From Acidobacteriota bacterium (GTDB lineage: Bacteria > Acidobacteriota > Blastocatellia > HR10 > J050): 34,288 nucleotides of DNA. The notes below the pieces were generated by a model. It did not search any database. It was not told the origin of the DNA and saw nothing but the letters and a program-made list of their open reading frames with translations. The translations under genes were made by a program, and so were the position numbers. Where the stretch lies: positions 1 to 34,288 of the forward strand of contig RFHM01000249.1 in assembly GCA_003696865.1 (NCBI GenBank). The letters run 5' to 3'. Each line of letters opens with the position of its first letter. Position 1 is the stretch's first letter. Positions 1,625 through 25,570 of the stretch are shown here, one piece after another.

Positions 1625-1635
1625 GGAGAAACAGC

Positions 1636-3535: not shown

Positions 3536-3621
3536 CGAGCACGCCCTTTTCACAGACATGGGGCGGTGCTCTTCATTCCATCAGATCACCATGCCAGTCT
3601 CAGCATAGAGAGGAGGAAACG

Positions 3622-6153: not shown

Positions 6154-6309
6154 GGAGTCGGTCATCGCGGATAAGATATGGTGAGAGTCCAGGACGCAAC
6201 CGATGGGCCATGCACTCTGACGTTCGAACCTCATGCTATTGCTCGTTAACGCCGGTCGAGGAAACCCGATTCATGGCGCGATGAGAGAGATGGGGAAGGA
6301 GAGTGAGCG

Positions 6310-7269
6310 ATGGTGGAACGGCAACTCTGGGTGAGTCCGGTGAGAAGCGTGATGAGGCTCGTCTCTCGTCTGGATGAGGCTCGGCGTCTCTATGAAGAGG
6401 CGTTAGGGCTGACGTGCCTCGCCGAGACGGAGAACATCCCTCCGACCATGCGAGAATTATGGGGGATCGATGGTCATTCGCTTCGCATGGCGCAGTTGGG
6501 CCAACCCGGTGAGCCGTGGGGGACGATCGAACTCATCCAGTGGCCGGGCGCCGATCATCGGCCATCTCCCGATTCTCCTCACCCAGAGGGACTTGGATTG
6601 TTCACTCTGAATTTCCTCACCAAAGACTTGGATCGAGCCATGCAACGACTCGCGTCGCGGGGGGCGTCGTTCGTCTCCTCTCCTCAAGTTTATGAGACGA
6701 TGCCGGGCCGGATCATCCACGAAGTCGTCGCCCGGGCGCCGACTGGCGAACGATGGACGCTCCTCCAGATTGGCGAGAAGATTGACGATGGTCAACATCC
6801 CCTCGGCCGAGCCATCGCGACGGTGGGGACGATGGTCGCTTCGTTGGAAGAAGCGCGGGCCTTCTATGCCGGTATTCTTGGGCTGACCGTCGCACTGGAG
6901 CTGGAAGGGAAGGGAGAGCCGTTCTCCACGCTCCTGGGAGCGCCTCCGGAGACGGAGATGAAGTTGATGTTGTTCACCAGTGGCGAGACCTGGGTGGGGA
7001 AGATCGAGACCCTCCAGCTCAAACTTCCCGGGGGAGATCATCGGTCGACCGGCGATTTCGCGCTCGCCCGGGCCGGGGGCTATTGGATGATGAGCGTCCT
7101 CGTTTCGGGTTTGGATGAACTGATCATTCGTTGTCGCCAACGGGGAGTTCGCTTGCTCCAGGGTCCCCTTGCCGTGGAGCGACCGTTTCTCGGTTCAGCG
7201 CGGGCGATGATCATCGATGGGCCGGGGAACATACGATTGGAGCTCGTCGAGCGCACTGCAGATGCGTAG
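6310..7269 (+). CDS. Two-domain VOC (glyoxalase/extradiol dioxygenase-fold) protein
   Basis: 319 aa with two repeated modules (RLVSRLDEARRLYEEALGL... and TMVASLEEARAFYAGILGL...), each a VOC betaalphabetabetabeta-type start. Confidence 0.8.
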   Translation: MVERQLWVSPVRSVMRLVSRLDEARRLYEEALGLTCLAETENIPPTMRELWGIDGHSLRMAQLGQPGEPWGTIELIQWPGADHRPSPDSPHPEGLGLFTLNFLTKDLDRAMQRLASRGASFVSSPQVYETMPGRIIHEVVARAPTGERWTLLQIGEKIDDGQHPLGRAIATVGTMVASLEEARAFYAGILGLTVALELEGKGEPFSTLLGAPPETEMKLMLFTSGETWVGKIETLQLKLPGGDHRSTGDFALARAGGYWMMSVLVSGLDELIIRCRQRGVRLLQGPLAVERPFLGSARAMIIDGPGNIRLELVERTADA

Positions 7270-7320: not shown

Positions 7321-8289
7321 TTACACCACGATTCCGGCGCGCAGGCGGGCCTGTTCGGAAGACCGCCCATCGAAGGCCATCTTGGGATGTGTGACCATTT
7401 TCATGCGCCTCAGGCTGGCGGGCATATCCGGCCAGAGCTTATTGCTGATGAGAATCATCTGACACTGGCCCGACTTGAGGCGGCGCTTCACATCCTCGAC
7501 GGTAGTGAATGGCCTGACCCGGAAGTTCACCTTCTTGCTGGCAAAGCCCCGCTGATAGTTGGCCAGGATGAGCCCTCCATAGCTGGCGAAATCGTGCTCA
7601 TCGAGGATGATCTCCACCGTGGCCCCATCCCGAAGCGCGTTGATCTCGTCGATCATCGTTTGGGTGAACTTGAGGCCGATGGGAATGATATCGGCATTGG
7701 GATGGGTGACGAGGCGGGTCACTTCACCATATCGCCAATGATTGGTGAATACTTTCAAAGGAATATCTGATGGGATCTCATCGAGCACCTGGATCCGACT
7801 CATGGCCAGACCGGCAACAGTCATCTGCCAGGCGCGACTGATTTGATCGGCCCGTTCGCGAGCTAATGACTCCGTGATATCCACGTAGAAGAAGCGCTGT
7901 TGAGCCCGCTCCCGCTCGAGCGCCAATTGATAGAGCATGCGGGCAAAAGATGTTCCAGCCAACCCGGCGGCGAGAGCTCTGGTCAGCGTCTCCTCGGCGA
8001 GTTTCTGACTCCGGCCGGCGAGGGCCAGATCGTTGGGATAAGAGAGTTCCGTATGGACGATCACTCCTTTGCCATGTTTGAGTTTCAAGATGCCGAACGA
8101 CTCCAGTTCCAGGTAAGCGCGACGCACGATGTTTCGACTCACACCCAACTCCTTCTCCACGTCGCGAATGGAGGGGAGCGTATCCCCAGGGCGGAGTTCG
8201 CCGAGGAGGAGTCCGAGCTTGATGCGATCGATGATCTGGGCGTGCGGGGGAATTTGACTATACGGTTCGAGGTAAAATTTGATTCCCAT
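7321..8289 (-). CDS. GntR-family transcriptional regulator with atypical C-terminal domain
   Basis: N-terminal wHTH: IIDRIKLGLLLGELRPGDTLPSIRDVEKELGVSRNIVRRAYLELESFGILKLKHGKGVIV. SD GGGGAGAACCT before ATG on the minus strand. Confidence 0.9.
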   Translation of the reverse strand: MGIKFYLEPYSQIPPHAQIIDRIKLGLLLGELRPGDTLPSIRDVEKELGVSRNIVRRAYLELESFGILKLKHGKGVIVHTELSYPNDLALAGRSQKLAEETLTRALAAGLAGTSFARMLYQLALERERAQQRFFYVDITESLARERADQISRAWQMTVAGLAMSRIQVLDEIPSDIPLKVFTNHWRYGEVTRLVTHPNADIIPIGLKFTQTMIDEINALRDGATVEIILDEHDFASYGGLILANYQRGFASKKVNFRVRPFTTVEDVKRRLKSGQCQMILISNKLWPDMPASLRRMKMVTHPKMAFDGRSSEQARLRAGIVV

Positions 8290-8407
8290 AGGTTCTCCCC
8301 AATCTAGATCGTGGATGCGTCACATCGGGACCATCTTCTCAGATGGCCTCCGGTTGGCGTCTTCCAGCCCCTCCCTCCAATCTCCTCGGAGGGGGCCCAA
8401 AAAGTCG

Positions 8408-8437
8408 TTGACATTGACGACGAATTGGGAAACAATA
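8408..8437 (+). promoter_or_regulatory. Possible promoter: TTGACA at 8408-8413 with weak -10 ACAATA near 8432
   Basis: -35 hexamer is consensus; -10 is weak; lies between divergent GntR gene and TonB receptor. Confidence 0.3.
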
Positions 8438-8465
8438 CTGTTTGGATTTTAAAACAATTGTGTTG
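8430..8465. promoter_or_regulatory. Tandem operator-like sites AAACA-N4-TGTTT (8430-8443) and AAACA-N4-TGTTG (8452-8465)
   Basis: Direct reading: AAACAATACTGTTT and AAACAATTGTGTTG, start-to-start spacing 22 bp, between the GntR gene and the TonB receptor. Confidence 0.5.
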
Positions 8466-8681
8466 ATTATGCGAGGTCAGTGGAGGCGAAACGACGGTCG
8501 ACGTGAAGTGCTGCATAGACAACATTTTGCAAGAGCGGAGGCCGTTTGTCTAGAGAGACGAAGCTGGTCCGAGGGAGCTGTTGAACCGGGCCGGCTCGCG
8601 CATCGGTGGATTCGCCTCGTTCCCCGGAGATGGAATTGACCTCGCTCGGTCAGCGCGAATCACTTGGAGGGAGGTGGTGAT

Positions 8682-11600
8682 ATGTACGCGAAGTCGGTTG
8701 AGAACCATGGGATCTCAGTGCCTTGGCTCATTGGTTTAGGGGTGATTGTGATCAATCTCTTCAATCTCATCCACGCCGTTGCCCAGAGCACGACGGCCAA
8801 TATTGAGGGGTATGTGACGGACCCTCAAGGTGCCGTCATTGTCGGCGCGCGCGTGACGGCGAGAAATGTGGCGACCAATCTGGAGCGGTCCACGGTGACC
8901 AATGCCAACGGGTTGTATTCGCTGCGATTACTTCCTATCGGGACCTACGAACTCACGGTGGAGGCCGAGGGATTCCAGACGGAGGTCTTGAAGGGCATCA
9001 CATTGGAAATCGACCAGACGGCGCGCATCGACATCGAGCTACCGGTGGGGACGACGACCGAGACGATCACGGTGACGGCAGCTCCGCCCATCACGGAAAC
9101 GGCTAATGCGACGATTGGAGAAGTGATCGAGAACCGGCGGATCACAGAACTCCCCTTGAACGGGCGGAATTTCCAACAATTAGCGTTGTTGACGGCGGGG
9201 ACGACGGCGGCCCAGGAAGGAGGGACGCAAGGATTCTTTGGCACGGCTGGTGGGGGTATTGGGTTCGTCATTCACGGAGGACGCGATGATCAGAATAATT
9301 TTCTCGTCGATGGGATCAACGTGATGGATCATTATTTCAACTCCATCACGCTCACCCCCTCCATCGACGCCATTCAGGAATTCAAGGTATTGCAGAATTC
9401 CTATTCAGCGGAAGCGGGCATGTTCGGTTCGGGTCAGATCAATATTTCCACCAAGTCGGGAACCAATGAGTTCCACGGCACGGTCTTCGAATTCTTGCGG
9501 AACGATAAGCTGGACGCCAAGAACTTCTTCGATCTTCCCGATCGGCCGATTCCTCCATTTCGCCAGAATCAGTTCGGTTTCAGTTTAGGCGGACCGGTGG
9601 TGAAGGATCGAACGTTTTTCTTCACCGCCTACGAAGGGCTTCGCATTCGACAGGATCAGACGCGCCTCTCGGCGCTCCCCACGATATATCAGCGTCAGGG
9701 GCTCTTCTTGGAACCGATCATCGATCCGGAGACGGGAGAACTCTTCCCGACGGTCGAGGTTGATGGGCAGACTTTCTATCGCATTCCGCCCGAACGGTTC
9801 GGCGTGGTGGCTCGGACGATCATCGAGCGATTCTTCCCCGTGCCCAACCTCCGGCCGACGGAGCCGGGCCTCAATCATGTCAGCGTAGATACGCGCAAGG
9901 AGGATCGCGATCAGATCGTCGTCCGGATCGATCACCGATTCAGCGAAGCTCATCAGTTTTTCGGCCGCTACATCTGGGCGCGGAGCGATCAACTCTTCCC
10001 CTTCGGGGACAATATTCTCACCTTCGATCCGCCGCCACCGCCGGGGTTTGGGACGCCGGTGGAAGATGACAGTCAGAACCTGGCCCTGGGCTGGACCTGG
10101 GTGGTCAGTTCCACGAAGGTGAACGAGTTGCGCCTCGGCTGGAATTTTTATGATGGGAAGCGGACGGCCGAAAATAAGGATGTGAATTTCGCCCGGCTGG
10201 TTGGGGTGGATATGGACATCGCCGAGCGAGATCGGGGATTCCCCGCTTTCACGTTGGCGGGAATTTCTCAATTTGGCGATTCCGACGTGTTTAATCCGTT
10301 ATTCCGGAAGAACAACATCTATCAGATCAGCGACAATTTCTCCTGGACGGTCGGTCGCCATAGTTTGAAATTCGGGGGCGATTTCCGCCACGTCCGGTTC
10401 GATACGTTGAGCAACTTTTTCACCCGAGGATTCGCCCAGTTCCAGGGCGGCGTGTGGGCGACGGGAAACATCTTGACCGGAGGAAACGTGGTCGGGAGCC
10501 CGATTGCCGATTTCTTATTGGATCGACCGTTTGCCAACATTCGCTTGCGAGGCGATACGACGGGGAACTTCCGGACGAATCTCTACGGCATCTACTTCAA
10601 CGATGAATTTCGCGTTTCGCCTCGCTTCACTATCACCTATGGCGTTCGATACGAGGTGTTTCCACCGATTCACGAGATCAACAATCGATTGGCCGTGTTC
10701 GATGATCGTACGGGGAACATCAGCATCGCGGGAGATCGCCTCCCGCCGGAGGTGAATGGCGAACTGGCCGCGCAGTATGATGCGCTCTTAGCGGCGCTCG
10801 GGCTTCCGCCGGTGAACTATGTGACGGCCGATTCTGTGGGGCTCAACGATGCCATCGTCAAGACGGACTTTGGCAATATTGCCCCCCGGATAGGCATCGC
10901 CTATGATCTGACGGGAAGTGGGCGGACGGTCCTTCGTGCGGCCTATGGCATCTTCAACGCTCTGAGGGACTGGTCGGCGCCGAGCGATAGCCGGAACATC
11001 CTCCCGTTCACGGCGCAGACCGTCTTTGTCGACTTCGCGCGGTTTGGCGTCCCCATTCCTCCCATCACTTATGCCGATGCGTACACGCAGATCGGGAATC
11101 AACTCATCGGGGGGATTGGGCCACAAGTCGAGATGCCCATTGGGTACACGCAGCAGTATACAGTGAATCTGCAGCACGCTATCACCGCCAATCTGGGCAT
11201 CGAGATCGCCTATGTCGGAGTGACGGGGGTGAATCTGAATCGGCTGACCACCAGTAATCAAGAGTTCATCGAAACGGGCATTCGTCCCTTCCCCAACTTC
11301 AGCTTCTTCATCCAAGAGGACAGTGGCGTGAATAGCTCATACCACAGCGCCTTCGTGCGCGTCGAGAAGCGAATGAGTCAGGGGCTCGCCTTCACGGCGT
11401 CGTACACCTTTTCCAAGTCCATCGACACGGCGTCCTCGGCCAGAGAGAATGGAGGAGCGCCCACGCGCGAGCAAGACGCCTACAATCGAGCGGCGGAAAA
11501 GGCACTCTCCAATTTCGATGTGCGCCATCGGTTCGTGGCCAGCTTCGTCTACGATCTCCCCTGGGGGCCGGGGCGTCGCTATGGAGGGAATCTCTCCGGG

Positions 11601-12113
11601 GTGATCGGCAAGCTCCTGGAAGGATGGCAGCTTGGTGGGATCGTCACGTTGCGTTCGGGGCAGCCATTCACGCCTCAGTTCCCCGGAGGGACGGTGGCCG
11701 GTTTCCGATTTCCGCGGCCGGACGTGATTCGGAATCCCAATCTACCGTCAGATCAGCGCGATCCCGCTCGATGGTTCGATGCCGGGGCATTCAGGGAACC
11801 CCCACTGGCGGTTGAAGCACAGGCGCTCATTCCGGGTTCCCATCTGCCGGGAAACGCCGGTCGAAATATCCTGGAGGGACCTGGGTTCAAGAACGTCGAT
11901 TTCACGCTGCAGAAGGTGACCAGCCTCGGCGAATCGGTCGATTTGCAGTTCCGTGCTGAGTTCTTTAACATCTTCAATCACCCGAATTTCGATTTGCCGG
12001 ATAGAAACTTCGTGCCCGGTCCGGGCGGCATCAATGCCAATCCCAATTTCGGCGTAGTGACATCGGCGAAAAACTCGCGGCAGATCCAGTTCGGGTTGAA
12101 GCTGATTTTTTAA
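8682..12113 (+). CDS. TonB-dependent outer-membrane receptor, Oar-like, with N-terminal carboxypeptidase-regulatory/Cna-B domain
   Basis: ATG 8682 after GGAGGGAGGTGGTGAT. IEGYVTDPQGAVIVGARVTARNVATN...GTYELTVEAEGFQ; ELPLNGRNFQQLALLTAG; VDGINVMD; terminal ...RQIQFGLKLIF (beta-barrel ending in Phe). Confidence 0.95.
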   Translation: MYAKSVENHGISVPWLIGLGVIVINLFNLIHAVAQSTTANIEGYVTDPQGAVIVGARVTARNVATNLERSTVTNANGLYSLRLLPIGTYELTVEAEGFQTEVLKGITLEIDQTARIDIELPVGTTTETITVTAAPPITETANATIGEVIENRRITELPLNGRNFQQLALLTAGTTAAQEGGTQGFFGTAGGGIGFVIHGGRDDQNNFLVDGINVMDHYFNSITLTPSIDAIQEFKVLQNSYSAEAGMFGSGQINISTKSGTNEFHGTVFEFLRNDKLDAKNFFDLPDRPIPPFRQNQFGFSLGGPVVKDRTFFFTAYEGLRIRQDQTRLSALPTIYQRQGLFLEPIIDPETGELFPTVEVDGQTFYRIPPERFGVVARTIIERFFPVPNLRPTEPGLNHVSVDTRKEDRDQIVVRIDHRFSEAHQFFGRYIWARSDQLFPFGDNILTFDPPPPPGFGTPVEDDSQNLALGWTWVVSSTKVNELRLGWNFYDGKRTAENKDVNFARLVGVDMDIAERDRGFPAFTLAGISQFGDSDVFNPLFRKNNIYQISDNFSWTVGRHSLKFGGDFRHVRFDTLSNFFTRGFAQFQGGVWATGNILTGGNVVGSPIADFLLDRPFANIRLRGDTTGNFRTNLYGIYFNDEFRVSPRFTITYGVRYEVFPPIHEINNRLAVFDDRTGNISIAGDRLPPEVNGELAAQYDALLAALGLPPVNYVTADSVGLNDAIVKTDFGNIAPRIGIAYDLTGSGRTVLRAAYGIFNALRDWSAPSDSRNILPFTAQTVFVDFARFGVPIPPITYADAYTQIGNQLIGGIGPQVEMPIGYTQQYTVNLQHAITANLGIEIAYVGVTGVNLNRLTTSNQEFIETGIRPFPNFSFFIQEDSGVNSSYHSAFVRVEKRMSQGLAFTASYTFSKSIDTASSARENGGAPTREQDAYNRAAEKALSNFDVRHRFVASFVYDLPWGPGRRYGGNLSGVIGKLLEGWQLGGIVTLRSGQPFTPQFPGGTVAGFRFPRPDVIRNPNLPSDQRDPARWFDAGAFREPPLAVEAQALIPGSHLPGNAGRNILEGPGFKNVDFTLQKVTSLGESVDLQFRAEFFNIFNHPNFDLPDRNFVPGPGGINANPNFGVVTSAKNSRQIQFGLKLIF

Positions 12114-12121
12114 TATTCAGG

Positions 12122-12158
12122 GGGAAGCCGGTCTCCGTGCAGTACGACTTGGCTTCCC
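12122..12158 (+). terminator. Hairpin after the TonB receptor gene (terminator-like, no long T tract)
   Basis: GGGAAGCC (12122-12129) pairs with GGCTTCCC (12151-12158); 21-nt loop; followed by only TT. Confidence 0.3.
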
Positions 12159-12196
12159 TTCGATAGAGACATTCAGATGTTGTGGTGGAGGGAGGT

Positions 12197-14257
12197 ATGG
12201 CCTATCGTTTAGGTGTCGATGTGGGTGGAACATTCACCGACGTTCTCTTGTTCAACGAAGAAACGGGCGAACTGTTGCTGGCCAAGACTCCATCCACGCC
12301 CCAGGATCAATCCATCGGTGTGATCGATGGCATTCGGAAGGCGGCGGAATTGGCCGGCATCGATCCCGCCGAGATCCAGCTGATCTTGCACGGGACGACA
12401 GTGGCCACCAATGCCGTCCTGGAGGGGAAGGGGGCGCTGGTGGGGTTGATCACGACCAAGGGGTTCGAGCAGATTCTTCACGTGGCTCGGGGACAGACGC
12501 CGGGCCCGCTGGCCGGTTGGATCATCATGATCAAACCGGAGCCGTTGGCTCCCCTGGAGTTGACGCGAGGCATTTCGGCTCGCATGAGCGCCAGAGGCGA
12601 AGAGATGGTGCCTCTGGATGAGGAGGAGGTTCGGGAAGCGGTCACGGAACTCCATGATGCGGGTATTGAGGCGTTGACCGTCTCTCTCATCAACTCTTTC
12701 GCCAATCCGGCTCACGAACGGCGCGTCAAGGAGATCGTGCAGGAGATGTTCCCCGACCTCCCGGTGACCATTTCCACGGATATTCTGCCGGAATTCCGCG
12801 AATACGAACGAACATTGACCACGGTGATGAACTCCTACGTGCGGCCGAAGATGAGCCTCTATCTGGCGGGCATCAAGGAGAAGCTGGAGGCGGCGCGATT
12901 GCATCCGACGGTGAATATCGTGCGATCCGACGGCGGGGTGATGAGTCTCGAACACGCCGCGGAAAAACCGGTGGCCACGCTGATGTCCGGACCCTCGGGA
13001 GGCGTCGTCGCCGCCAGCTATATCGGCGAGCTGACCGGCTATCGAAATGTCCTCTCATTCGACATGGGCGGCACGTCCACGGATGTGGCCATCAGTTTCG
13101 GGGGATCGCCCAATATCGTCCGCGAGACGCGCATCGGGTACTATCCGGTCAAGGCCTCGACCGTCGACGTTCAGAGCGTGGGGGCGGGTGGTGGATCGAT
13201 CGCTCACGTGCCCATCACCGGCGCCCTTCGCGTGGGTCCGCAGAGCGCAGGAGCCGAGCCGGGACCGGCCTGCTATGGCAAAGGAGGAGAAGAACCCACC
13301 GTCACCGATGCCAATCTCGTGCTCGGTCACTTGCCGCCGAGATTGCTCGGCGGTGAGATGACGCTCGATGTGGAGGCGGCCAAAGCCGCCGTCGAGAAGA
13401 TCGCCCGGGCACTCGACCTGGATCTTTACCAGGCGGCACAGGGCATCATCGATATCGTGAATGAGAATATGTTCGGGGCCATACGTCTCGTCTCCATTCA
13501 ACGAGGGTATGACCCGCGCGACTTCGCTCTGGTGGCTTTTGGGGGTGCGGGGCCGCTCCATGTGAATGCCCTCTCCCAATTAACTGGTTCCTGGCCGGCC
13601 ATCGTGCCCCCAACACCAGGCGTCCTTTCAGCTCTTGGATTCCTCCACTCTGATATCCGCAATGAATTCGCTCAAACCTATATTCGCACCATGGACAAGG
13701 TCGAGCTCCATGAGGTCAAACAGGGGCTCGCCAAACTCGCCGAACAGGCCATCGCCTGGCTCGATGGCGAGGGTATCCCGTCGCCGCGACGGCGCGTTCG
13801 CTACGAAATCGATGTGCGCTATTACCGACAGGGCTACGAGTTCCCCGTGGAAGTGACTCCCGAGCAGTTCGATTCGCCGGCCGGATTCGACAAACTGGTT
13901 GCCGATTTCAAGGAGATTCACGAGCGGAACTATGGCTTCAATCTCGACTCGCTGATCGAAATGGTCAATCTCCGCGCCATTGGAATCGGTGAAGTTCGCA
14001 AGGTCGAGCTGCAGAAGTACGATCTCGATTCGGAGGATGCCTCGCCGGCGGTCATCGAAGAACATCACATCCACTTCAAAGGAGGATTCCTTCCCACGCT
14101 CATTTATCAGAGAGAAAAACTGCGGCCGGGAAACGTGATCAAAGGGCCGGCGGTCATCACCCAGACGGATTCCACCACCGTCATCTTGCCCGGACATTAT
14201 GGGAAGGTGGATCCTTACCTCAACATCCTGATATGGCCTGATGGTCAGGGCCAATGA
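12197..14257 (+). CDS. hyuA: Hydantoinase/oxoprolinase A subunit (HyuA-like), copy 1
   Basis: ATG 12197 after GGAGGGAGGT. LGVDVGGTFTDVLLF, HGTTVATNAVLEGKGA, LPEFREYERTLTTVMNSYV, SFDMGGTSTDVAI, GAGGGSIAHV, FGGAGPLHVNAL. Confidence 0.93.
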   Translation: MAYRLGVDVGGTFTDVLLFNEETGELLLAKTPSTPQDQSIGVIDGIRKAAELAGIDPAEIQLILHGTTVATNAVLEGKGALVGLITTKGFEQILHVARGQTPGPLAGWIIMIKPEPLAPLELTRGISARMSARGEEMVPLDEEEVREAVTELHDAGIEALTVSLINSFANPAHERRVKEIVQEMFPDLPVTISTDILPEFREYERTLTTVMNSYVRPKMSLYLAGIKEKLEAARLHPTVNIVRSDGGVMSLEHAAEKPVATLMSGPSGGVVAASYIGELTGYRNVLSFDMGGTSTDVAISFGGSPNIVRETRIGYYPVKASTVDVQSVGAGGGSIAHVPITGALRVGPQSAGAEPGPACYGKGGEEPTVTDANLVLGHLPPRLLGGEMTLDVEAAKAAVEKIARALDLDLYQAAQGIIDIVNENMFGAIRLVSIQRGYDPRDFALVAFGGAGPLHVNALSQLTGSWPAIVPPTPGVLSALGFLHSDIRNEFAQTYIRTMDKVELHEVKQGLAKLAEQAIAWLDGEGIPSPRRRVRYEIDVRYYRQGYEFPVEVTPEQFDSPAGFDKLVADFKEIHERNYGFNLDSLIEMVNLRAIGIGEVRKVELQKYDLDSEDASPAVIEEHHIHFKGGFLPTLIYQREKLRPGNVIKGPAVITQTDSTTVILPGHYGKVDPYLNILIWPDGQGQ

Positions 14258-14286
14258 CCGTGAGATTCCAGGGAATGAAGGAGGCG

Positions 14287-16140
14287 ATGATGAGCACCCA
14301 ACGAACGAAATTAGATAAGATCACGCTGGACATCATCGAGAATGCCTTACGCAACGCCCGTCACGAGATGGACGCCGTCGTGTTTCGCTCGGCGATGTCA
14401 CCGGTGATTCGGGAACAGCACGACGCCTTCCCGATGATTTGTACGCCGGATGGACGGATGGTCGTCGGGCAGTTCGGGTCCTACATCAGCGGATTCATCA
14501 AAGAGTGGAAACGGGGCATTCATCCGGGGGATATTTTCCTCACCAGCGATCCCTACAAGTGCCAGGCAGCCATCTCCCACATCAACGATTGGTTGGTGCT
14601 CATGCCCATCTTCCGCGATGGCGAGTTGATTGGATGGGCTTCGCAGTTCGGCCACACGCTGGATATTGGCGGACCGGTTCCCGGATCATTGCCCACCGAT
14701 GCCACGACGATTTATGGCGAGGGCGTTCGCATTCCACCGGTGAAGCTGTTCGACCAGGGGAGGCTCAATGAGGACGTCCTCGATCTCATTCTCAACAACT
14801 CGCGAACTCCGGAGATGAATTACTTCGATCTCATGGCCATTGTCGCCGGGTGCCGAACGGCGGCCCGGCGCGTATTGGAACTCTGCGATCGGTTCGGCAA
14901 AGAGACGGTCATGGAGGCTTTCGAAGCTCTCCTGGATCGAACCTATCGGGCGATGAGTCAGCTCATCGTGAAGAATCTACCCGAAGAGCCCGTCTCGTTC
15001 GAGGATTACGTCGACGATGATGGACGGGGTAACGGTCCGTATAAAATGAAGCTCACCATCTGGCGGGAAGGAGATCACGGGTATTTCGACTGGACGGGAA
15101 CCGATCCGCAAGCGCCGGGGCCGATCAATTTCTATCTCAGCGAAGAGATGTTCAAGATGTTCATCGGCGTGTACTTGATCATGGTCTTCGATCCACAGAT
15201 CCTGTTCAACGACGGATTCTATCCCCTCCTGCACATCATCATCCCCGAAGGCTCGCTCCTCAGACCGAAATTCCCCGCCGCGCTGGGATGCCGGACGCAC
15301 GCTCTGGCGCGATTGTTCGATGTCCTGGGTGGCGCGTTGGGGCGGCAGGCACCAGAGCTGACCACGGCGGCCGGTTATGGGACCAGTCCCTATCTGCTCT
15401 ATAATGGCTACGATGAGAATGGCGAGTTCTTCCATTTGATGGAGATCAGTTTCGGCGGCATTCCCGGTCGACCGGTGGATGATGGGCTGGATGCCCATTC
15501 CTGGTGGCCGCTGTTTGAGAATATTCCCACCGAGTATCTGGAGAGTTATTATCCATTGACCATCGAGCAGTATGGATCGATGATCGATTCCGGAGGCGCT
15601 GGCTTCCACCGCGGAGGGAATGGTGTCATTAAGGTTTATCGATTCGAAGCCGATGGCGAGATTGCCATCCACGACGATCGGGAACGCTCTCATCCCTGGG
15701 GCGTGCTGGGAGGACTGCCCGGTGCTCCCTCATCCAAACTCCTCATTCGAAAGAATGGGGAACGCGTCCCGCTTCCGTCGAAAGTCAGTTGCGTCAAGGT
15801 CGAGAAGGGCGATCGCCTCATTTACGTTACCGCCGGCGCTGGCGGTTGGAAAGATCCCCTGGATCGACCGCCGGAGAAGGTCCAAAAGGATGTCATTCGC
15901 AAACTCGTGTCGCTGGAGAAGGCGCGCCGAGACTATGGCGTCGTGCTCGATCCCAAGACGTTGGAGATCGATCATCGAGCCACAGAGTCCTTGCGCGCCA
16001 AGATGCGGCGGGAACGTGGTCCTGTGCCCACGTTCACCTTCGGTCCAACGCCTGAGCCCATCGGCGTCATGGCCGAGTATTATAGTCGAAAGGCGCGAGA
16101 GGAGACGGCGGGCGCGGGCGTGGGAGATCGGCGAGCGTAG
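14287..16140 (+). CDS. hyuB: Hydantoinase B/oxoprolinase subunit (HyuB-like), copy 1
   Basis: ORF opens at 14254 (ATGA overlap with hyuA), but AAGGAGG at 14278-14284 favours ATG 14287 or 14290. KITLDIIENALRNARHEMDAVVFRSAMSPVIREQHDAFPMI; DPYKCQAAISHINDW; FHRGGNGVIKVYRF; VTAGAGGWKDPLDR. Confidence 0.93.
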   Translation: MMSTQRTKLDKITLDIIENALRNARHEMDAVVFRSAMSPVIREQHDAFPMICTPDGRMVVGQFGSYISGFIKEWKRGIHPGDIFLTSDPYKCQAAISHINDWLVLMPIFRDGELIGWASQFGHTLDIGGPVPGSLPTDATTIYGEGVRIPPVKLFDQGRLNEDVLDLILNNSRTPEMNYFDLMAIVAGCRTAARRVLELCDRFGKETVMEAFEALLDRTYRAMSQLIVKNLPEEPVSFEDYVDDDGRGNGPYKMKLTIWREGDHGYFDWTGTDPQAPGPINFYLSEEMFKMFIGVYLIMVFDPQILFNDGFYPLLHIIIPEGSLLRPKFPAALGCRTHALARLFDVLGGALGRQAPELTTAAGYGTSPYLLYNGYDENGEFFHLMEISFGGIPGRPVDDGLDAHSWWPLFENIPTEYLESYYPLTIEQYGSMIDSGGAGFHRGGNGVIKVYRFEADGEIAIHDDRERSHPWGVLGGLPGAPSSKLLIRKNGERVPLPSKVSCVKVEKGDRLIYVTAGAGGWKDPLDRPPEKVQKDVIRKLVSLEKARRDYGVVLDPKTLEIDHRATESLRAKMRRERGPVPTFTFGPTPEPIGVMAEYYSRKAREETAGAGVGDRRA

Positions 16141-16236
16141 TCTGAAGGTGGCCCGTGATGTTCGGGTACGCTCGACCGAGATGAAAGCCGCCAGACGGCC
16201 CTTTCGACAACACATGATCGTCACAGAGACAGAGCT

Positions 16237-16881
16237 ATGACGGACGAACATACGCGCGAACTCTACAAACAACGGGGATTCTCAGCGCGGGTCGGATTCG
16301 GCGAGCGCCCGGCGCTGCTCATCATCGATTTCATCAATGCCTTCACGGATCTCTCATCGCCGCTGGCCTCCAATCTGGACAAGGAGGTGGAGGCGACGCG
16401 TCAGTTGCTGGTGGTCGCGCGCCGAAAGCGCATTCCCATCTTCTTCACCACGGTGGAATATGATGAGCGATTTCGCGAGGCGGGCGTGTTCATCAAGAAA
16501 GTCCCGTCGCTGGCCGTGCTCAAAGCGGGCTCCCGATTGGTGGAGATCGACGAGCGATTGAAGCCAGAACCGGGAGAGCATATCATCTCCAAGCGCTACG
16601 CCAGCGCCTTTTTTGGTACACCGTTGGCATCCACGCTGACCGCTCTTCGGGTGGACACGTTGTTGATCGCCGGTTGTACGACCAGCGGTTGCGTTCGGGC
16701 CTCCGCCGTGGATTCCTGTCAGTCCGGCTTTCGCACCATCGTGGTGGAAGAAGCCGTCGGTGATCGGGCCCGCGGCCCGCATGAAGCCAATTTATTCGAT
16801 ATCGATGCCAAGTACGGAGACGTCGTCTCCCTGGCGGAAGCGCTGGAGTATCTCAACGGCCTGGAGACCTGGCCGGACTGA
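16237..16881 (+). CDS. Isochorismatase-family cysteine hydrolase (N-carbamoylsarcosine amidase / maleamate amidohydrolase-like)
   Basis: PALLIIDFINAFTD (Asp), FIKKVPSL (Lys), LIAGCTTSGCVRASAVDSCQSGF (Cys), GPHEANLFDIDAKYGDVVS. Confidence 0.88.
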   Translation: MTDEHTRELYKQRGFSARVGFGERPALLIIDFINAFTDLSSPLASNLDKEVEATRQLLVVARRKRIPIFFTTVEYDERFREAGVFIKKVPSLAVLKAGSRLVEIDERLKPEPGEHIISKRYASAFFGTPLASTLTALRVDTLLIAGCTTSGCVRASAVDSCQSGFRTIVVEEAVGDRARGPHEANLFDIDAKYGDVVSLAEALEYLNGLETWPD

Positions 16882-16969
16882 GGAAGGAACGAGAAGGATA
16901 TATCTGTCATCTCCCGTTTCCATCGCGGACGGGAGAACACGAATCATGAAAGGGAGAGGGAATTCTATT

Positions 16970-18190
16970 ATGGCCAATGGAGCAAAAGGAAATGCAGAGA
17001 TGCCCTTACGAGGCCTGCGCGTCCTCGAGATGGGACAACTTCTCGCCGGTCCGTTCGCGGGCGTCATCCTGGCGGCATTTGGTGCCGAGGTCATCAAAAT
17101 CGAACCACCAAAGATCGGCGACCCGTTGCGCCGCTGGCGAGAGGTCTATAAGGGAACGGCACTATGGTGGTACATCCTGGGTCGAAATAAGAAATGCATC
17201 ACCTTGAATCTCCGTCATCCTCGTGGCCAGGAATTGGCTCGCCAACTGGCCAAGGATGTGGATATCGTCCTGGAGAACTTCAAGCCGGGAACGTTGGAGA
17301 AGTGGGGACTCGGCTATGAGGATTTGAGAAAGCTCAATCCTCGAGTGATCATGGTTCGCGTCTCGGGATGGGGACAGACCGGCCCCTACTCATCACGACC
17401 GGGCTATGCCAGCGTGGCCGAAGCCATGGGCGGATTTCGATATGTGACGGGATATCCCGATCGCCCGCCGGTCCGCCCCAATCTCAGCTTGGGGGACACG
17501 TTGGCCGGACTTCATGCTGCCTTGGGAGCCCTCATGGCCGTTTATCATCGGGACGTGAAGGGAACAGGACGGGGTCAAATGGTCGACGTGGCCATTTACG
17601 AAGCCGTGTTCAACATGATGGAGAGTCTCGTTCCGGCCTATGATAAGCTGGGATACGTCCGCGAGCGATTGGGATCCAAGCTCTCGGGGATTGTGCCATC
17701 CAATACGTACATCTGTAAGGATGGCAAGTACATCGTCATTGGCGGGAACGGCGATACCATCTTCAAGCGACTCATGACGGCTATAGGTCGAGAGGATCTG
17801 GCACAGGATCCTCGGCTGGAACACAACGACGGTCGCGTAGAACATGAAGAGATGATCGATCAGGCCATCGAGGCGTGGACCAAAGCCCACACTTACGATG
17901 AAGTTTTCCGTACCCTGGAGAGCGCCGGCGTCCCTTGCGGGCCCATTTATAGTGCCGCCGAGATTCTCAAGGATCCCCATTTCAACGCTCGCGGTTTGTT
18001 CGAGACGGTGGAGATTCTGGATGGGGAGAAGGTGAAAATTCCTGCCATCCTCCCCTTCTTGAGCGAAACGCCAGGTCGCACCGAGTGGGTTGGACCGCCA
18101 CTGGGTGCGCACAATGAGGAGATCTATTGTCGCCGTCTCGGACTCTCTCAACAGGAACTGGCTGCCCTCCAGGAAGAGGGGATCATCTGA
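16970..18190 (+). CDS. CaiB/BaiF family (family III) CoA-transferase
   Basis: ORF opens at 16760; AGGGAGAGGG at 16951-16960 precedes ATG 16970 (ATG 16946 is an alternative). LRGLRVLEMGQLLAGPFAGVILAAFGAEVIKIEPP; ILGRNKKCITLNLRHPRGQELARQL; VENFKPGTLEKWGL-type motif; GPIYSAAEILKDPHFNARGLF. Confidence 0.93.
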   Translation: MANGAKGNAEMPLRGLRVLEMGQLLAGPFAGVILAAFGAEVIKIEPPKIGDPLRRWREVYKGTALWWYILGRNKKCITLNLRHPRGQELARQLAKDVDIVLENFKPGTLEKWGLGYEDLRKLNPRVIMVRVSGWGQTGPYSSRPGYASVAEAMGGFRYVTGYPDRPPVRPNLSLGDTLAGLHAALGALMAVYHRDVKGTGRGQMVDVAIYEAVFNMMESLVPAYDKLGYVRERLGSKLSGIVPSNTYICKDGKYIVIGGNGDTIFKRLMTAIGREDLAQDPRLEHNDGRVEHEEMIDQAIEAWTKAHTYDEVFRTLESAGVPCGPIYSAAEILKDPHFNARGLFETVEILDGEKVKIPAILPFLSETPGRTEWVGPPLGAHNEEIYCRRLGLSQQELAALQEEGII

Positions 18191-18276
18191 GGAGTCCCAT
18201 TGAGGGTGATCGACCGATGGTCTCAACGATGCGGGACGAACGCTCCTGGAGGGAGAAAGATTGAGGAGGAAAACCG

Positions 18277-19164
18277 ATGCATTTACCAAAGGAGGTCCAG
18301 ATCGTTGATGTGGCACCGCGCGATGGACTGCAGAACATCGCCGGCGAGATCCCTACCGATCAGAAAATCGAACTGGTGAACGCCTTGGTCGCTGCCGGAT
18401 TATCGCGGATCGAGGTCACCTCATTCTCCCATCCCCGATGGGTTCCCCAGCTTCGAGATGCCGAACAGGTGTTGGCAGGGATCAACCGCTCGCCGGGAAC
18501 GCGCGTCATGGTACTGATCCCCAATCGGCGAGGGTATGATCGCGTTGGCCCCTGCCGGGATCTGATAGATGAGGTGGCCGTGGTCATCTCGGCGACGGAA
18601 TCGATGAATCAGAAAAACGTCAATCGACCCATCGCCGACTCCATGCGGCAATTCGCCGAGATCACCGAGGCGGCCAAAAGAGATGGTTTGTGGGTGCGAG
18701 GCTCTATCGGTGTGGCTTTCGTGTGTCCCTACGAAGGGAAGACGCCGGAAGATCAGACGCTTCGTCTGGCCGAGGAATTCTTCCAGATGGGCGTCGATGA
18801 AGTCATGTTCGCCGATACCATCGGGCGGGCCAATCCTCGACAGGTGTATGAACTGCTCGCGCGGGCGCGCGATCGATGGCCCGATCGCCCCCTGGCCGTT
18901 CATTTCCATGATACCACTCACTTGGCCCTGGCCAACGCCGTCGCCGCCCTGGAAGCGGGGGTCACCATCTTTGACGCCTCGGTCGGTGGACTGGGCGGCT
19001 GCCCCTTCACTCCCAAGGGCGCGGGGAATGTGGCCACCGAGAAGCTCGTCTATATGCTCCACGAGATGGGGATCGAGACGGGGATCGACGATCGCGTACT
19101 GGCGCAGACGGCCGCCTTGGCCCAACAATTGAAGCGCGCCGCGTCGGTTGAGGTGGTCGGTTAA
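18277..19164 (+). CDS. Hydroxymethylglutaryl-CoA lyase family protein
   Basis: DVAPRDGLQN, SFSHPRWVPQLRDAEQVL, HFHDTTHLALANAVAALEAGVTIFDASVGGLGGCPFTPKGAGNVATE. SD GAGGAGGAAAACCG. Confidence 0.88.
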   Translation: MHLPKEVQIVDVAPRDGLQNIAGEIPTDQKIELVNALVAAGLSRIEVTSFSHPRWVPQLRDAEQVLAGINRSPGTRVMVLIPNRRGYDRVGPCRDLIDEVAVVISATESMNQKNVNRPIADSMRQFAEITEAAKRDGLWVRGSIGVAFVCPYEGKTPEDQTLRLAEEFFQMGVDEVMFADTIGRANPRQVYELLARARDRWPDRPLAVHFHDTTHLALANAVAALEAGVTIFDASVGGLGGCPFTPKGAGNVATEKLVYMLHEMGIETGIDDRVLAQTAALAQQLKRAASVEVVG

Positions 19165-19251
19165 AGTAAAGTTGGAACGCATCGTCCATGGGATCCGCTC
19201 CTGGCGATGATCCTGTGGTCCTGAACGGTCATCAGGGAGGAGCGAACAGCG

Positions 19252-21306
19252 ATGGCATATCGGCTCGGTATCGATGTTGGAGGAACGTTCACCGATCTTC
19301 TCTTGCTCGATGTGCAGTCGGGGAAGACGTTCCTGGTGAAGACACCGTCCACGCCACAAGACCCCTCTGTGGGGATCATGGAGGGCATCGAACGGATATG
19401 TCAGGTGGCTGGGCTGTCGCCCGGTGAGATCGCGCAAGTCCTGCACGGAACCACGGTGGCCACCAACGCCGTTCTGGAAGGGAAGGGCGCGCGCGTGGGA
19501 TTATTGACCACGGAAGGGTATCGTTACATTTTGCATCTGGCGAGATCGTGGACGCCGGGGCCCTTGTTCGGGTGGATCATCATGAAGAAGCCCGAGCCAT
19601 TGGCGGCCATCGAAGACACCCGGGAAGTGGAAGAGCGGCTCTCGCCCACGGGAGAGGTCGTTCGTCCATTGAATGAAGAGAAGGTTCGGCGGGACATCAT
19701 CGATCTGCGAGATCGGGGCATCGAGTCGTTGACCGTCTCCTTGCTCCATTCTTATGCCAATCCCGTTCACGAGCGGCGCATCAAGGAACTGGCTGCCGAA
19801 CTCTGTCCCGATATTCCCATCTCGATTTCCTCTGAGATCCTGCCCGAGTTTCGAGAGTATGAGCGGACGTTGACCACGGTGATGAATGCTTACGTCAAAC
19901 CCAAAGTTCGTTCCTACTTTCTCAATTTCGAGCGGAAACTCAGAGAGGCGGGTATCAATTCGGTGGTCAATGTAGTGCGGTCCGACGGAGGGCTGATGAC
20001 CTTGCGGGCGGCACAAGATCGACCGGTGTATGGATTGCTGTCAGGGCCTGCTGGTGGGGTTGTGGCTGCTGCCTATGTGGGCAGGTTGGCTGGCCATCCA
20101 TCGGTTCTTTCGCTGGATATGGGGGGGACCTCGACCGATGTCGCTCTCACGCGCAATGGTCAATTGACCATCGCCCGAGAGACGAAGGTCGGATACTATC
20201 CGGTGAAGTCTCCATCGGTCGACGTTCAAACCATTGGTGCCGGCGGTGGGAGCATAGCTCACGTCCCCGAGGTCACCGGAGCCTTACGCGTTGGACCGCA
20301 GAGTGCCGGAGCCGATCCTGGGCCCGCTTGCTACGGTCGAGGCGGACAAGAAGCGACGGTGACCGATGCCAATCTGGTGTTGGGACATTTGCCCCCTCAA
20401 CTGGTCGGAGGCGAGATGAGCTTGGATGTCGATGCGGCTCATCGCGCCGTCGAGCGCATTGGGCGCCGCCTGGGACTCGATGTCCATCAAGCCGCTCAAG
20501 GTATTCTCGACATCGTTAACGAGAATATGTTTGGTGCTCTTCGATTGGTCTCGGTCGAGCGGGGCATCGATCCCAGGGAATTCGCGCTGGTCGCTTTTGG
20601 AGGGGCTGGCCCCATGCATGCCAATGCTCTCGGCAGGCTGATCGGTTCTTGGCCGGTGATCATTCCTCCCGACCCTGGCGTGCTCTCGGCGTTGGGATTT
20701 CTCATCTCCGAGTTCAAGAACGAGTTTGCGCAAACGTTCATTCGCGTCATGGATGATCGGCTGACTCTGGACGAGGTGCTCTCCACCATGGATCGCCTGG
20801 GCGAGGAAGCCCGGCAGTGGTTGATCGAGGAGGGGATTCCCCCTCAGGACCAGGACATCCGATTCAATATCGATGTGCGCTATTACCGTCAGGGGTATGA
20901 GATCCCGTTGGATGTGACTCACGACCAGCTTCGGCGGGAAGGGCTCGCCTCGCTCAAACGGCGTTTCGATGAGATTCACCATCAGTTGTATGGCTTCATT
21001 CCGGCAACGCCCATGGAACTGGTCAATATTCGCGCTATCGGCGTCGGTCGCATCAAACACTTCGAGCTCCACAAACACGAACCAGCCCCCGGTGAGGCCG
21101 CTGAGGCGATCATCGATCAGCATCGGATCTACTTCGATGGGGAGTTCATTCCCACGCCGATTTACGACCGATCGCGCTTGGGCGTGGGGCACCAACTCAC
21201 CGGTCCGGCCATCATTACTCAGTACGATACCACGACGGTGGTGCTCCCCGGATATCAGTGTACGGTGGACGAATACTTGAACTTGCTCATTCGACCGCAG
21301 ACTTGA
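19252..21306 (+). CDS. hyuA: Hydantoinase/oxoprolinase A subunit (HyuA-like), copy 2
   Basis: Same motifs as copy 1 in the same order (LGIDVGGTFTDLLLL, HGTTVATNAVLEGKGA, LPEFREYERTLTTVMNAYV, SLDMGGTSTDVAL, FGGAGPMHANAL). Confidence 0.93.
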   Translation: MAYRLGIDVGGTFTDLLLLDVQSGKTFLVKTPSTPQDPSVGIMEGIERICQVAGLSPGEIAQVLHGTTVATNAVLEGKGARVGLLTTEGYRYILHLARSWTPGPLFGWIIMKKPEPLAAIEDTREVEERLSPTGEVVRPLNEEKVRRDIIDLRDRGIESLTVSLLHSYANPVHERRIKELAAELCPDIPISISSEILPEFREYERTLTTVMNAYVKPKVRSYFLNFERKLREAGINSVVNVVRSDGGLMTLRAAQDRPVYGLLSGPAGGVVAAAYVGRLAGHPSVLSLDMGGTSTDVALTRNGQLTIARETKVGYYPVKSPSVDVQTIGAGGGSIAHVPEVTGALRVGPQSAGADPGPACYGRGGQEATVTDANLVLGHLPPQLVGGEMSLDVDAAHRAVERIGRRLGLDVHQAAQGILDIVNENMFGALRLVSVERGIDPREFALVAFGGAGPMHANALGRLIGSWPVIIPPDPGVLSALGFLISEFKNEFAQTFIRVMDDRLTLDEVLSTMDRLGEEARQWLIEEGIPPQDQDIRFNIDVRYYRQGYEIPLDVTHDQLRREGLASLKRRFDEIHHQLYGFIPATPMELVNIRAIGVGRIKHFELHKHEPAPGEAAEAIIDQHRIYFDGEFIPTPIYDRSRLGVGHQLTGPAIITQYDTTTVVLPGYQCTVDEYLNLLIRPQT

Positions 21307-21456
21307 GAGAGTGCGCCTGGTTCGAGATCGTGGGGTTGATTGCGGAGAATGAACGAGGCGCCATGGACGTCGACGACGAGCCGACGGTCGGTCAGAAGGC
21401 GAGGGCGTCCGGAACGCCATGCCATTCATTGACCACTTCTCAGGGAGGATATAGGG

Positions 21457-23253
21457 ATGACTCAACGGACAGCGGTGAGCATTGATCCCATCACCTTGGA
21501 TATCATCGAGAGTGCGCTCAAGAACGCGCGCTTCGAAATGGATGCCGTCCTCTATCGAACGGCGATGTCGCCGAGCGTTCGTGAGCAGCACGATGAATTT
21601 CCCATGATCACCGATCCTGATGGCCGGATGGTCGTCGGTCAGTTCGGATCATACATTCCCGAACTGTTGAAAGACTTCGGTCCCATCGAAGAGGGGGACG
21701 TCATTCTGATGAGTGATCCCTATGAATGTGCGGGCTCCATCTCTCATTTGAACGACTGGATGGTCATTTATCCGATCTTTTATGATGGCCAGCGGGTCGG
21801 TTTCTCATCACTGTTCGGGCACATGATGGATGTCGGTGGGCCGGTGCCGGGCAGTCAGCCTCAGCATGCGACGACCATTTTTGGTGAAGGGTTGCGCATT
21901 CCGCCGGTGAAGTTGTTCGAACGGGGGAAGCTGAACGAATCGCTGCTCAAGCTCATTCTCCACAATGTGCGCACGCCGGAGATGAATCGGAGCGACCTCA
22001 TGGGCATCATTGCCGGTTGTCGCGTGGCCGCCCGGCGGGTGCAAGAGCTTTGTGATCGATTCGGAAAAGAGACGTATCTGGCCGCCTGCCAGGAGCTGTT
22101 GGATCGTACCCGTCGGGCCATGGCCAAGCTCATCCGACGCTATATCAAGGAAAAGAAGAAGACGTTCATCGATTGGGTGGATGAGGATGGGTTGGGGAAT
22201 GGACCGTTCAAGATGCAGCTCACCGTCTGGCGGGAAGGAGAGAAGGCCTATTTCGATTTCACCGGCACGTCGCGACAGGCTCCGGGCCCGATCAATTTTC
22301 ATATCAACGAGGGATTGATGAAGATGTTCTGTGGGGTCTATTTGATCATGAACACGGATCCTCAGATTCTGTTCAATGATGGATTCTACGATCTGTTCGA
22401 AGTCATCCTCCCCAAGGGGACGATCATGAATCCGGAGTTTCCGGCGGCGGTGGGGAATCGACTCAATACGCACACGCGGATGTTTGATGTGCTGAGTGGA
22501 GCGCTGGGCCTTCACGATCGGCAACTGGGCATGGCCGCTGGCTATGGGACGAGTCCCTACTTCGTGTACAGCGGTCGAGATCGTCGGGGGAACTACTTCC
22601 AGTTGGTCGAACTCCTGTTTGGCGGCATTCCAGGACGCCCTCACGATGACGGGTTGGATGGACACTCGTGGTGGCCGCTGTTCACGGCCAACGCCACCGA
22701 GTATCTGGAGAGCTACTACCCGGTTCGCATCGAACAGTATTACCCGCGACGAGACACCGGTGGGCCGGGGCGCCATCGAGGGGGAACGGGGATATTGAAG
22801 AAGTATACCTTCCTCGAACCGGGCGAGGTGTCCATCAATGATGATCGCCACATCACCCATCCTTGGGGTATTTGGGGAGGGCGACACGGGGGACGCTCTT
22901 ACAAGAAGCTCATCAAGAGAGACGGAACGGAGATCGAACTCCCGGCGCAAAAAGACTTCATTCGCGTCGAGCCGGGCGACCAGTTACTGTTCTGTACGGC
23001 CGGTGCGGGAGGATGGGGTGATCCGTTAGAACGCGCTCCTCATCGCGTGTGGTTGGATGTCATTCGCGGATTGGTCTCCATCGAACAGGCGCGGGACGGG
23101 TATGGAGTGGTGATCGACGAGCGAACGATGGAACTCGATGAACGGGCGACCGAGGAACTCCGCGCCAAAATGCGAGAGAAACGGGGCCCGCTACCAGATT
23201 TCGACTTCGGCCCTCGACCGGAGGTGATTCCACCGTCCGAATGGCAAGGATAA
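21457..23253 (+). CDS. hyuB: Hydantoinase B/oxoprolinase subunit (HyuB-like), copy 2
   Basis: TLDIIESALKNARFEMDAVLYRTAMSPSVREQHDEFPMI; DPYECAGSISHLNDW; GRHRGGTGILKKYTF; CTAGAGGWGDPLERAPHRV. SD CAGGGAGGATATAGGG. Confidence 0.93.
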   Translation: MTQRTAVSIDPITLDIIESALKNARFEMDAVLYRTAMSPSVREQHDEFPMITDPDGRMVVGQFGSYIPELLKDFGPIEEGDVILMSDPYECAGSISHLNDWMVIYPIFYDGQRVGFSSLFGHMMDVGGPVPGSQPQHATTIFGEGLRIPPVKLFERGKLNESLLKLILHNVRTPEMNRSDLMGIIAGCRVAARRVQELCDRFGKETYLAACQELLDRTRRAMAKLIRRYIKEKKKTFIDWVDEDGLGNGPFKMQLTVWREGEKAYFDFTGTSRQAPGPINFHINEGLMKMFCGVYLIMNTDPQILFNDGFYDLFEVILPKGTIMNPEFPAAVGNRLNTHTRMFDVLSGALGLHDRQLGMAAGYGTSPYFVYSGRDRRGNYFQLVELLFGGIPGRPHDDGLDGHSWWPLFTANATEYLESYYPVRIEQYYPRRDTGGPGRHRGGTGILKKYTFLEPGEVSINDDRHITHPWGIWGGRHGGRSYKKLIKRDGTEIELPAQKDFIRVEPGDQLLFCTAGAGGWGDPLERAPHRVWLDVIRGLVSIEQARDGYGVVIDERTMELDERATEELRAKMREKRGPLPDFDFGPRPEVIPPSEWQG

Positions 23254-23570: not shown

Positions 23571-24440
23571 ATGAAGCTCAAAGTAGCATTGGTTCAGATT
23601 TGTTCAACGGAGGATGTCCGGCGAAACTGCGCACGAGCGCTAGAGTGGATTGAGGCGGCGGCGCAACGTGGCGCGCGCTGGGTTTTGTTCCCCGAGAATA
23701 CGTGCTACATTCGTGGAGAGAATGATCCGGTGAGCTGGAGCGAGCCGCTGGATGGGCCGATTGTCGAGTCGTTCTGCCGGGCGGCGCAGAGATGGGGTAT
23801 CTACGTGTTGCTGGGGAGCATGCCCGAGCCGATTCCTGGTTCGACGAAGGTGTACAACACGTCTCTCCTCATCGGGCCGGAAGGGGACATCCTGGCTGCT
23901 TACCGCAAGCTCCATCTGTTCGATGCCGTCCTGCCCGATGGTCGGGTTCTGAGCGAATCGCGATTCGTGGAGAAGGGCGACGATCTCGCGCTGGCCCATG
24001 TTGATGGAGTGACCGTTGGATTGAGCATATGCTACGACCTTCGCTTTCCCGAACTCTATCGAGCGTTGACGGTTGCTGGGGCAGAGGTGTTGACGGTTCC
24101 CTCGGCATTCACCGTACCCACGGGACAGGCTCACTGGGAGATCCTCCTTCGTTCTCGGGCAATTGAAAATCAGGCCTTTGTGCTGGCTCCGGCGCAAACG
24201 GGGCAACATACGTCGTCGCGTCGCAGCTATGGGCACAGCATGATCATAGACCCCTGGGGGAGAGTGATCGCGGCGGTCGGACAGGAGGAGACAGTGGTGG
24301 AAGCAGAACTGGAGATGGATCAGGTTCGGCAAATTCGCCGGCGCATGCCCTGTTTGCGTCATCGCCGCTTCGATATTGTTGGACCGAACGAAGGGCATCC
24401 AGACGCGGCTCGCGGCGGGGAAAGAGGGGGACATGTTTGA
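23571..24440 (+). CDS. Nitrilase/carbon-nitrogen hydrolase (Nit1/Nit2-like)
   Basis: Catalytic triad motifs FPENTCY (Glu), YRKLHLFD (Lys), LSICYDLRFPELYR (Cys). Confidence 0.92.
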   Translation: MKLKVALVQICSTEDVRRNCARALEWIEAAAQRGARWVLFPENTCYIRGENDPVSWSEPLDGPIVESFCRAAQRWGIYVLLGSMPEPIPGSTKVYNTSLLIGPEGDILAAYRKLHLFDAVLPDGRVLSESRFVEKGDDLALAHVDGVTVGLSICYDLRFPELYRALTVAGAEVLTVPSAFTVPTGQAHWEILLRSRAIENQAFVLAPAQTGQHTSSRRSYGHSMIIDPWGRVIAAVGQEETVVEAELEMDQVRQIRRRMPCLRHRRFDIVGPNEGHPDAARGGERGGHV

Positions 24441-25045: not shown

Positions 25046-25498
25046 ATGGCCAAGACGTCGACATCACTCCGCAGAAGCGACGAGGGAAGGGAAGCGCTGA
25101 GGGAGAGACTCCAGGCTAAGGGGTATCACCTCACCCGCCAACGCATGGCCGTTTACGAAGCGTTGAGTCGTATCCCGCATCATCCCACGGCGGAAGAAGT
25201 CTTTTTAGCGGTAAAAAAGCGACTTCCTCGCATTAGTCTGGCGACGGTGTACAAGAATCTCGAAGCGCTGGTTCAATGTGGAGCGGCGGCGAAGCTCACA
25301 TACGGGGGAGATTCGGCACGTTACGACATTCGAACCGATCATCACGACCACGTTCGTTGTTTGAGATGTGGCAAGATTTGGGATATTGAACCTCGCGCGG
25401 GCTCGTCACGAGTCACGCCGATGGAGCTTCCCAAGGGGTTTCAGGTGCTCGAATGTCGTGTGGAATTCGTCGGTTACTGCCGATCGTGCCGGAGGTAG
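25046..25498 (+). CDS. Fur-family metalloregulator, PerR-like
   Basis: LTRQRMAVYEAL...HPTAEEVFLAVKKRLPRISLATVYKNLEAL; TDHHDHVRCLRCGKIWDIEP; VGYCRSC (two CxxC). Confidence 0.9.
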   Translation: MAKTSTSLRRSDEGREALRERLQAKGYHLTRQRMAVYEALSRIPHHPTAEEVFLAVKKRLPRISLATVYKNLEALVQCGAAAKLTYGGDSARYDIRTDHHDHVRCLRCGKIWDIEPRAGSSRVTPMELPKGFQVLECRVEFVGYCRSCRR

Positions 25499-25517
25499 CC
25501 GAGGGTGTTTTTTTCGC

Positions 25518-25539
25518 CAAGAATCAATAGTAATTCTTG
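25518..25539. promoter_or_regulatory. Operator-like palindrome upstream of dps
   Basis: CAAGAAT-N8-ATTCTTG, perfect 7-bp arms, ~30 bp before the dps start. Confidence 0.6.
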
Positions 25540-25570
25540 TTTTTCATTCAATGCAGAAAGGAGATTAACG

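Follow-up and report, generated by a model that had tools for sequence, protein, structure and literature searches.

Here we report a gene module at positions 8682-23253 of a 34,288-nucleotide stretch of an Acidobacteriota bacterium (contig RFHM01000249.1, assembly GCA_003696865.1; the whole stretch is called the window below). It links two HyuA/HyuB pairs, an isochorismatase-type hydrolase (ISO), a family III (CaiB/BaiF) CoA-transferase (CaiB) and a 3-hydroxy-3-methylglutaryl-CoA (HMG-CoA) lyase-family enzyme (HMGL). From sequence comparison we put the chances at about even that this module encodes the breakdown of a five-membered cyclic imide. All genes named for the region in a first-pass annotation, including a receptor gene at its start, are present and co-directional on the + strand, as confirmed by Pfam and NCBIfam models and, where checked, by catalytic residues. 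A genus-mate carries these genes intact, at 91-98% identity, so the gene set is not due to chance. The enzyme families are all known; none of the papers searched describes the linked set, its distribution or the two enzyme swaps reported here. Literature searches on the gene combination, on maleimide hydrolysis and on maleimide biodegradation yielded no description of it. In the first-pass annotation the pathway was not recognised as a described one.

Relatives of ISO were collected from 396 Acidobacteriota genomes, 17 of which gave a match, from plasmids and from a single search across 84,980 species genomes, whose best 80 loci were kept. The resulting 91 non-redundant loci (numbered with an L) were scored for genes within 10.5 kb of ISO, with a threshold of at least 45% identity for HyuAB. 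HyuAB of this kind is present at 36 of the 91 loci. CaiB together with an HMGL or LeuA-type lyase occurs at 23 of these 36, versus 3 of the 55 that lack HyuAB (Fisher p 1.5e-9, a value that overstates the association because related sequences are not independent). The complete set was found in Acidobacteriota, Bacillota (Peptococcaceae L060, DX2 L092, Alicyclobacillus L116 and Lysinibacillus L119), Pseudomonadota (L063, L064 and L069) and Haloarchaea (L045, L046, L086, L108 and L121), and gene order varies among these groups. Such repeated linkage in differing gene order argues for one pathway, and conservation across at least four phyla removes the concern, raised in the first-pass annotation, that the neighbourhood might be conserved in no relatives. 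It also bears on the alternative of two unrelated adjacent operons, in which HyuAB and ISO would scavenge nitrogen and CaiB and HMGL would serve HMG or leucine-type acids. The CaiB/HMGL pair is indeed absent from 13 of the 36 HyuAB-ISO loci, and as no other HMGL was found in this genome, the enzyme may be used in leucine breakdown and may have a second function. We nevertheless regard two operons as distinctly unlikely, given the recurrence in four phyla in differing orders, the two Chloroflexota loci (L050 and L052) that keep ISO-CaiB-HMGL without HyuAB, and the presence of a different lyase instead at 6 of the 13 loci that lack the pair.

The putative ATP-dependent ring-opening subunits HyuA1 (12182-14257) and HyuA2 (19252-21306) each contain all three Hydantoinase_A domains (PF05378, PF01968 and PF19278) above the curated Pfam cut-offs, with the nucleotide motifs in place. 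Their partners, the putative metal-dependent hydrolytic subunits HyuB1 (14254-16140, overlapping the HyuA1 gene by 4 bases) and HyuB2 (21457-23253), match PF02538 with E values of about 1e-145. They keep metal ligands (D57, H109, D112 and H134; D46, H97, D100 and H122) equivalent to D41/H99/D102/H124 of the caprolactamase subunit CapB (PMC8453981). Domains and HyuB ligands thus place both pairs in the ATP-dependent hydantoinase/oxoprolinase family. In the HyuA tree all 34 ISO-linked HyuAs, including both window copies, form one clade with 100/100 support, and N-methylhydantoinase (NMHase), CapA, ApcC and unlinked HyuAs fall outside it; ApcC was the carboxylase reference in this final tree, AcxA having been used only in an earlier one. 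The three other HyuA genes of the genome have neither ISO nor HMGL adjacent.

These results weigh on a further alternative, in which the substrate of HyuAB is a lactam, or a ketone to be carboxylated, and ISO is an esterase or acts on an unrelated amide. Caprolactamase is the best NCBIfam model for the HyuAs, at about 560 bits, the superfamily includes carboxylases, and the ISO relative PatE, discussed below, is an esterase. However, the scores of 557-565 bits are far under the caprolactamase cut-off of 1000, the acetophenone and acetone carboxylase models are further off (315-348 bits versus 1500), the HyuAs lie outside those clades, and a lactam would yield an amino acid and leave ISO no task; we therefore consider this alternative very unlikely. 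Identity as a caprolactamase or N-methylhydantoinase proper was rejected on the sub-cut-off score and the position of the references outside the module clade, and identity as an acetone or acetophenone carboxylase was likewise rejected on scores and tree. The grouping with such carboxylases that the first-pass annotation had named as fatal to its proposal was thus not found.

Two of the pseudomonadotal loci, L063 and L069, each carry ISO in duplicate along with two sets of HyuAB; one set is accompanied by CaiB and HMGL, the other by redoxin and amidase genes. A CobW-type metal chaperone (L054:7337-8392 and relatives) recurs beside alphaproteobacterial HyuAB-ISO loci and perhaps loads the HyuB metal.

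ISO (16237-16881; PF00857), a putative half-amide hydrolase, has the Asp-Lys-Cys triad D31/K119/C152, invariant in 13 sequences, which places it in the cysteine hydrolase superfamily. Its best solved relative is PDB 26st (57% identity, 255 bits), and the true N-carbamoylsarcosine amidohydrolase (CSHase), 1nba, ranks behind 26st, 4l07 and 3ot4 with 149 bits. The first-pass annotation had pointed to N-carbamoylsarcosine amidase and maleamate amidohydrolase as kin; the family stood, but a Rhodococcus phthalate-operon protein is nearer than either. Identity as a CSHase was rejected, 1nba being clearly more distant than 26st. The latter bears the CSHase name and is 99.5% identical to a phthalate-operon protein encoded on pRHL2 of R. 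jostii RHA1, directly after ABC transporter genes. Phthalate ester breakdown in RHA1 involves the monoalkyl phthalate hydrolase PatE (PMC13040137), found beside the transporter PatDABC (PMC10973024). The position after ABC transporter genes suggests that the pRHL2 protein is PatE, and PatE, which hydrolyses phthalate half-esters, would then be the closest relative of ISO with a role assigned to it. This fits an ISO that would act on half-amides or half-esters of diacids.

The first swap concerns the ring opener. A PuuE-type protein of the polysaccharide deacetylase superfamily is present at 24 ISO loci without HyuAB, mostly in line and 15-120 bases from ISO, and at none of the 36 HyuAB loci; these 24 loci belong to an ISO clade that lacks HyuAB. 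The allantoinase PuuE and the cyclic imidases CIH (P. putida) and HxnM are related proteins (PMC9304392; PMC3084791), and HxnM of Aspergillus converts a hydroxy-glutarimide into a half-amide, which is then hydrolysed by an amidase (PMC9304392). Taken together, swap and precedent suggest that ISO probably acts downstream of ring opening, whether by HyuAB or by an imidase-like enzyme. At L043 (11099-12651) and about 23 loci like it, the genes for the PuuE-type protein and the ISO relative mostly form a tight pair. These loci come from Actinomycetota and some other phyla, and the ISO relative is annotated as CSHase; the pair looks like an imidase plus a half-amidase.

The same enzymes could instead form a creatinine-like hydantoin branch. 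HyuAB would open N-methylhydantoin or a 5-substituted hydantoin with ATP, ISO would be an N-carbamoyl amino acid amidohydrolase, and CaiB and HMGL would process the carbon skeleton later. The closest solved HyuA structure is that of N-methylhydantoinase, relatives of ISO are named CSHase in both PDB and NCBI, and the PuuE-type partners are related to allantoinase. Against this stand the position of N-methylhydantoinase outside the module clade, the weaker match of ISO to 1nba than to the phthalate-operon protein 26st, the linked lyases, which require hydroxy-diacids and not amino acids, and the scanned neighbours, among which no sarcosine or creatinine gene was identified. We consider a hydantoin pathway unlikely.

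CaiB (16970, or 16946, to 18190; PF02515) scores 413 bits with CoA_transf_3 and has the LGD motif with the catalytic Asp, as expected of family III. It reaches no specific NCBIfam equivalog cut-off and shares 42-72% identity with its counterparts in almost every other module. HMGL (18277-19164; PF00682) exceeds the cut-off of the NCBIfam HMG-CoA lyase subfamily (NF004283; 359 versus 246 bits) and contains the motifs RD, HFHD and GLGGCP, so that model and residues agree with membership in the HMG-CoA lyase family.

It is at this step that the second swap occurs. A lyase of the isocitrate lyase (ICL) superfamily is present in seven HyuAB-ISO loci, six of which lack CaiB and its lyase. Near ISO, such enzymes were found at L034, L054, L089, L097 (without HyuAB), L106, L109, L111 and L120, in both archaea and bacteria (for example L111:10709-11656, L054:10961-11830 and L097:12386-13258). 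Those whose sequences were read carry the lyase motif EDQ...PK[KR]CGH, and the haloarchaeal one that was tested has 2,3-dimethylmalate lyase as its best match. In further haloarchaeal modules the HMGL position is taken by a LeuA-type enzyme; LeuA-type enzymes condense acyl-CoA with alpha-oxo acids. Both alternatives point to a substituted malate as the compound cleaved, with an alpha-oxo acid as one product and an acid or acyl-CoA as the other. Because the substrates of these lyases are substituted malates, not amino acids, an imide is preferred among the imide, lactam and hydantoin put forward in the first-pass annotation: a malate skeleton carrying a single amide comes from a five-membered imide, whereas hydantoins and lactams do not yield one. 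The glutarate-type dicarboxylate suggested there for the CoA-transferase is less likely than a malate-type one, and the proposed order of ring opening, deamidation of the half-amide, CoA activation and lyase cleavage is supported by the swaps.

From gene content, conservation, HyuA clade and swaps we infer the reactions and substrate of an imide pathway as follows. HyuAB would open the cyclic imide ring with ATP to a half-amide, which ISO would hydrolyse to a dicarboxylate and ammonia. The dicarboxylate would be a 2-substituted malate, directly or once hydrated; CaiB would transfer CoA to it, and HMGL would cleave the resulting malyl-CoA, giving an acyl-CoA and an alpha-oxo acid. In certain organisms the ICL-superfamily enzyme would split the free malate, replacing CaiB and the lyase, and the two HyuAB pairs of this genus may serve two related rings.

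Several points weigh against this pathway. Enzyme identities rest on families only, and the classical substrate of the HMGL family is HMG-CoA, not compounds of the malyl-CoA type. To our knowledge, known imidases need no ATP. The ring that PuuE opens is a hydantoin, which means that the first swap by itself cannot separate imide from hydantoin, and a more distant deacetylase-type protein lies beside four alphaproteobacterial HyuAB loci (L054, L055, L064 and L073). A hydratase would be required if the ring is a maleimide, and none is consistently linked at the scored loci: aconitase-family genes occur at L034 and L120, and MmgE/PrpD genes at L027, L089 and L120. The MmgE/PrpD proteins of the linked loci are about 28-32% alike, and the genome's own PrpD is about 26-31% alike; with so few loci and so little likeness, neither family is claimed as a module-linked hydratase. 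A narrower version of the imide pathway, which we hold to be very doubtful, has maleimides or malimides, as from heme and chlorophyll breakdown, as substrates. HyuAB opening and half-amide hydrolysis would be followed by hydration to a dialkylmalate and cleavage via CoA (CaiB plus HMGL or LeuA-type enzyme) or by a dimethylmalate-type lyase.

The region opens with a putative Oar-like TonB-dependent outer-membrane receptor (8682-12113, +), so termed because the Plug and TonB barrel models (PF07715 and PF00593) match below cut-off and PF25183 (OMP_b-brl_4, 763.6 bits, over cut-off) and CarboxypepD_reg were matched. Its gene adjoins the module at L024, L025 and, at 36%, L082, in Acidobacteriota alone; gene adjacency is the basis for suggesting that it takes up the substrate. 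A GntR-type regulator (7321-8289, -; PF00392) is divergent from the receptor gene, with a 65% relative in the same position in the family-mate L025 and a 41% relative within the L082 module, and is likely the local regulator. Comparison of the gap 8290-8690 with L025 for a GntR operator gave short matches only, one of them 16 bases at 94%. The unit extends past 23253 to a CN_hydrolase of the nitrilase/omega-amidase superfamily (23571-24440, +; PF00795), a probable accessory amidase kept beside the module at L024 (84%) and L025 (65%). The second HyuAB pair and this gene are so far restricted to this genus and family.

Positions 44-7269 hold genes for an AMP-dependent acyl-CoA ligase, an amidohydrolase_2, a cupin (DUF4437), DUF1838 and VOC proteins, which may prepare the ring for the module. 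Relatives of the ligase, amidohydrolase and cupin genes are divergent beside the L099 module, and DUF1838 and cupin genes lie near that of L027. Downstream, 25046-29831 is ordinary, with a FUR regulator, a ferritin-like gene and cytochrome oxidase assembly genes (CtaA, UbiA-type, COX3 and DUF420), and a large BNR/sortilin-repeat protein gene (31613-34288, -) runs off the contig end.

HyuA and HyuB genes are commonly named hydantoinase or oxoprolinase without evidence. One HyuA clade now gains a conserved partner set in bacteria and archaea, with the candidate chemistry narrowed to a few testable compounds, and its ISO partner suggests that many genes labelled as CSHase may act on half-amides or half-esters of diacids. 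Tetrapyrrole-derived maleimides are a compound class known from sediments; if they were the substrate, the module would supply enzymes for their degradation.

Among known systems, the HyuAB/CapAB/NMHase family shares Pfam domains, nucleotide motifs and HyuB metal ligands with the window copies, which differ in their own clade, in scoring little over half the nearest curated equivalog cut-off, and in their linkage to ISO and the CoA-lyase pair. The creatinine pathway likewise uses a HyuAB-type enzyme and then an isochorismatase-fold hydrolase, but its CSHase is less similar to ISO, and the module has CaiB and a lyase and no identified sarcosine genes. The window itself lacks an enzyme of the 2,3-dimethylmalate lyase/petal death protein type, an ICL-superfamily group and the family of the lyase that replaces CaiB and its lyase in six loci. 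PatE of R. jostii RHA1 belongs to a phthalate operon without HyuAB; it resembles ISO in sequence (57% identity) and triad, and its substrate is a half-derivative of a vicinal diacid. The Aspergillus nicotinate pathway (cyclic imidase HxnM and amidase HxnN; PMC9304392) differs in its six-membered ring, its eukaryotic host and its lack of ATP-dependent HyuAB and of CaiB/HMGL. It resembles the proposed module in proceeding from imide to half-amide and, by an amidase, to hydroxy-diacid, and its PuuE-related imidase is similar to the partner that ISO has in the HyuAB-less loci.

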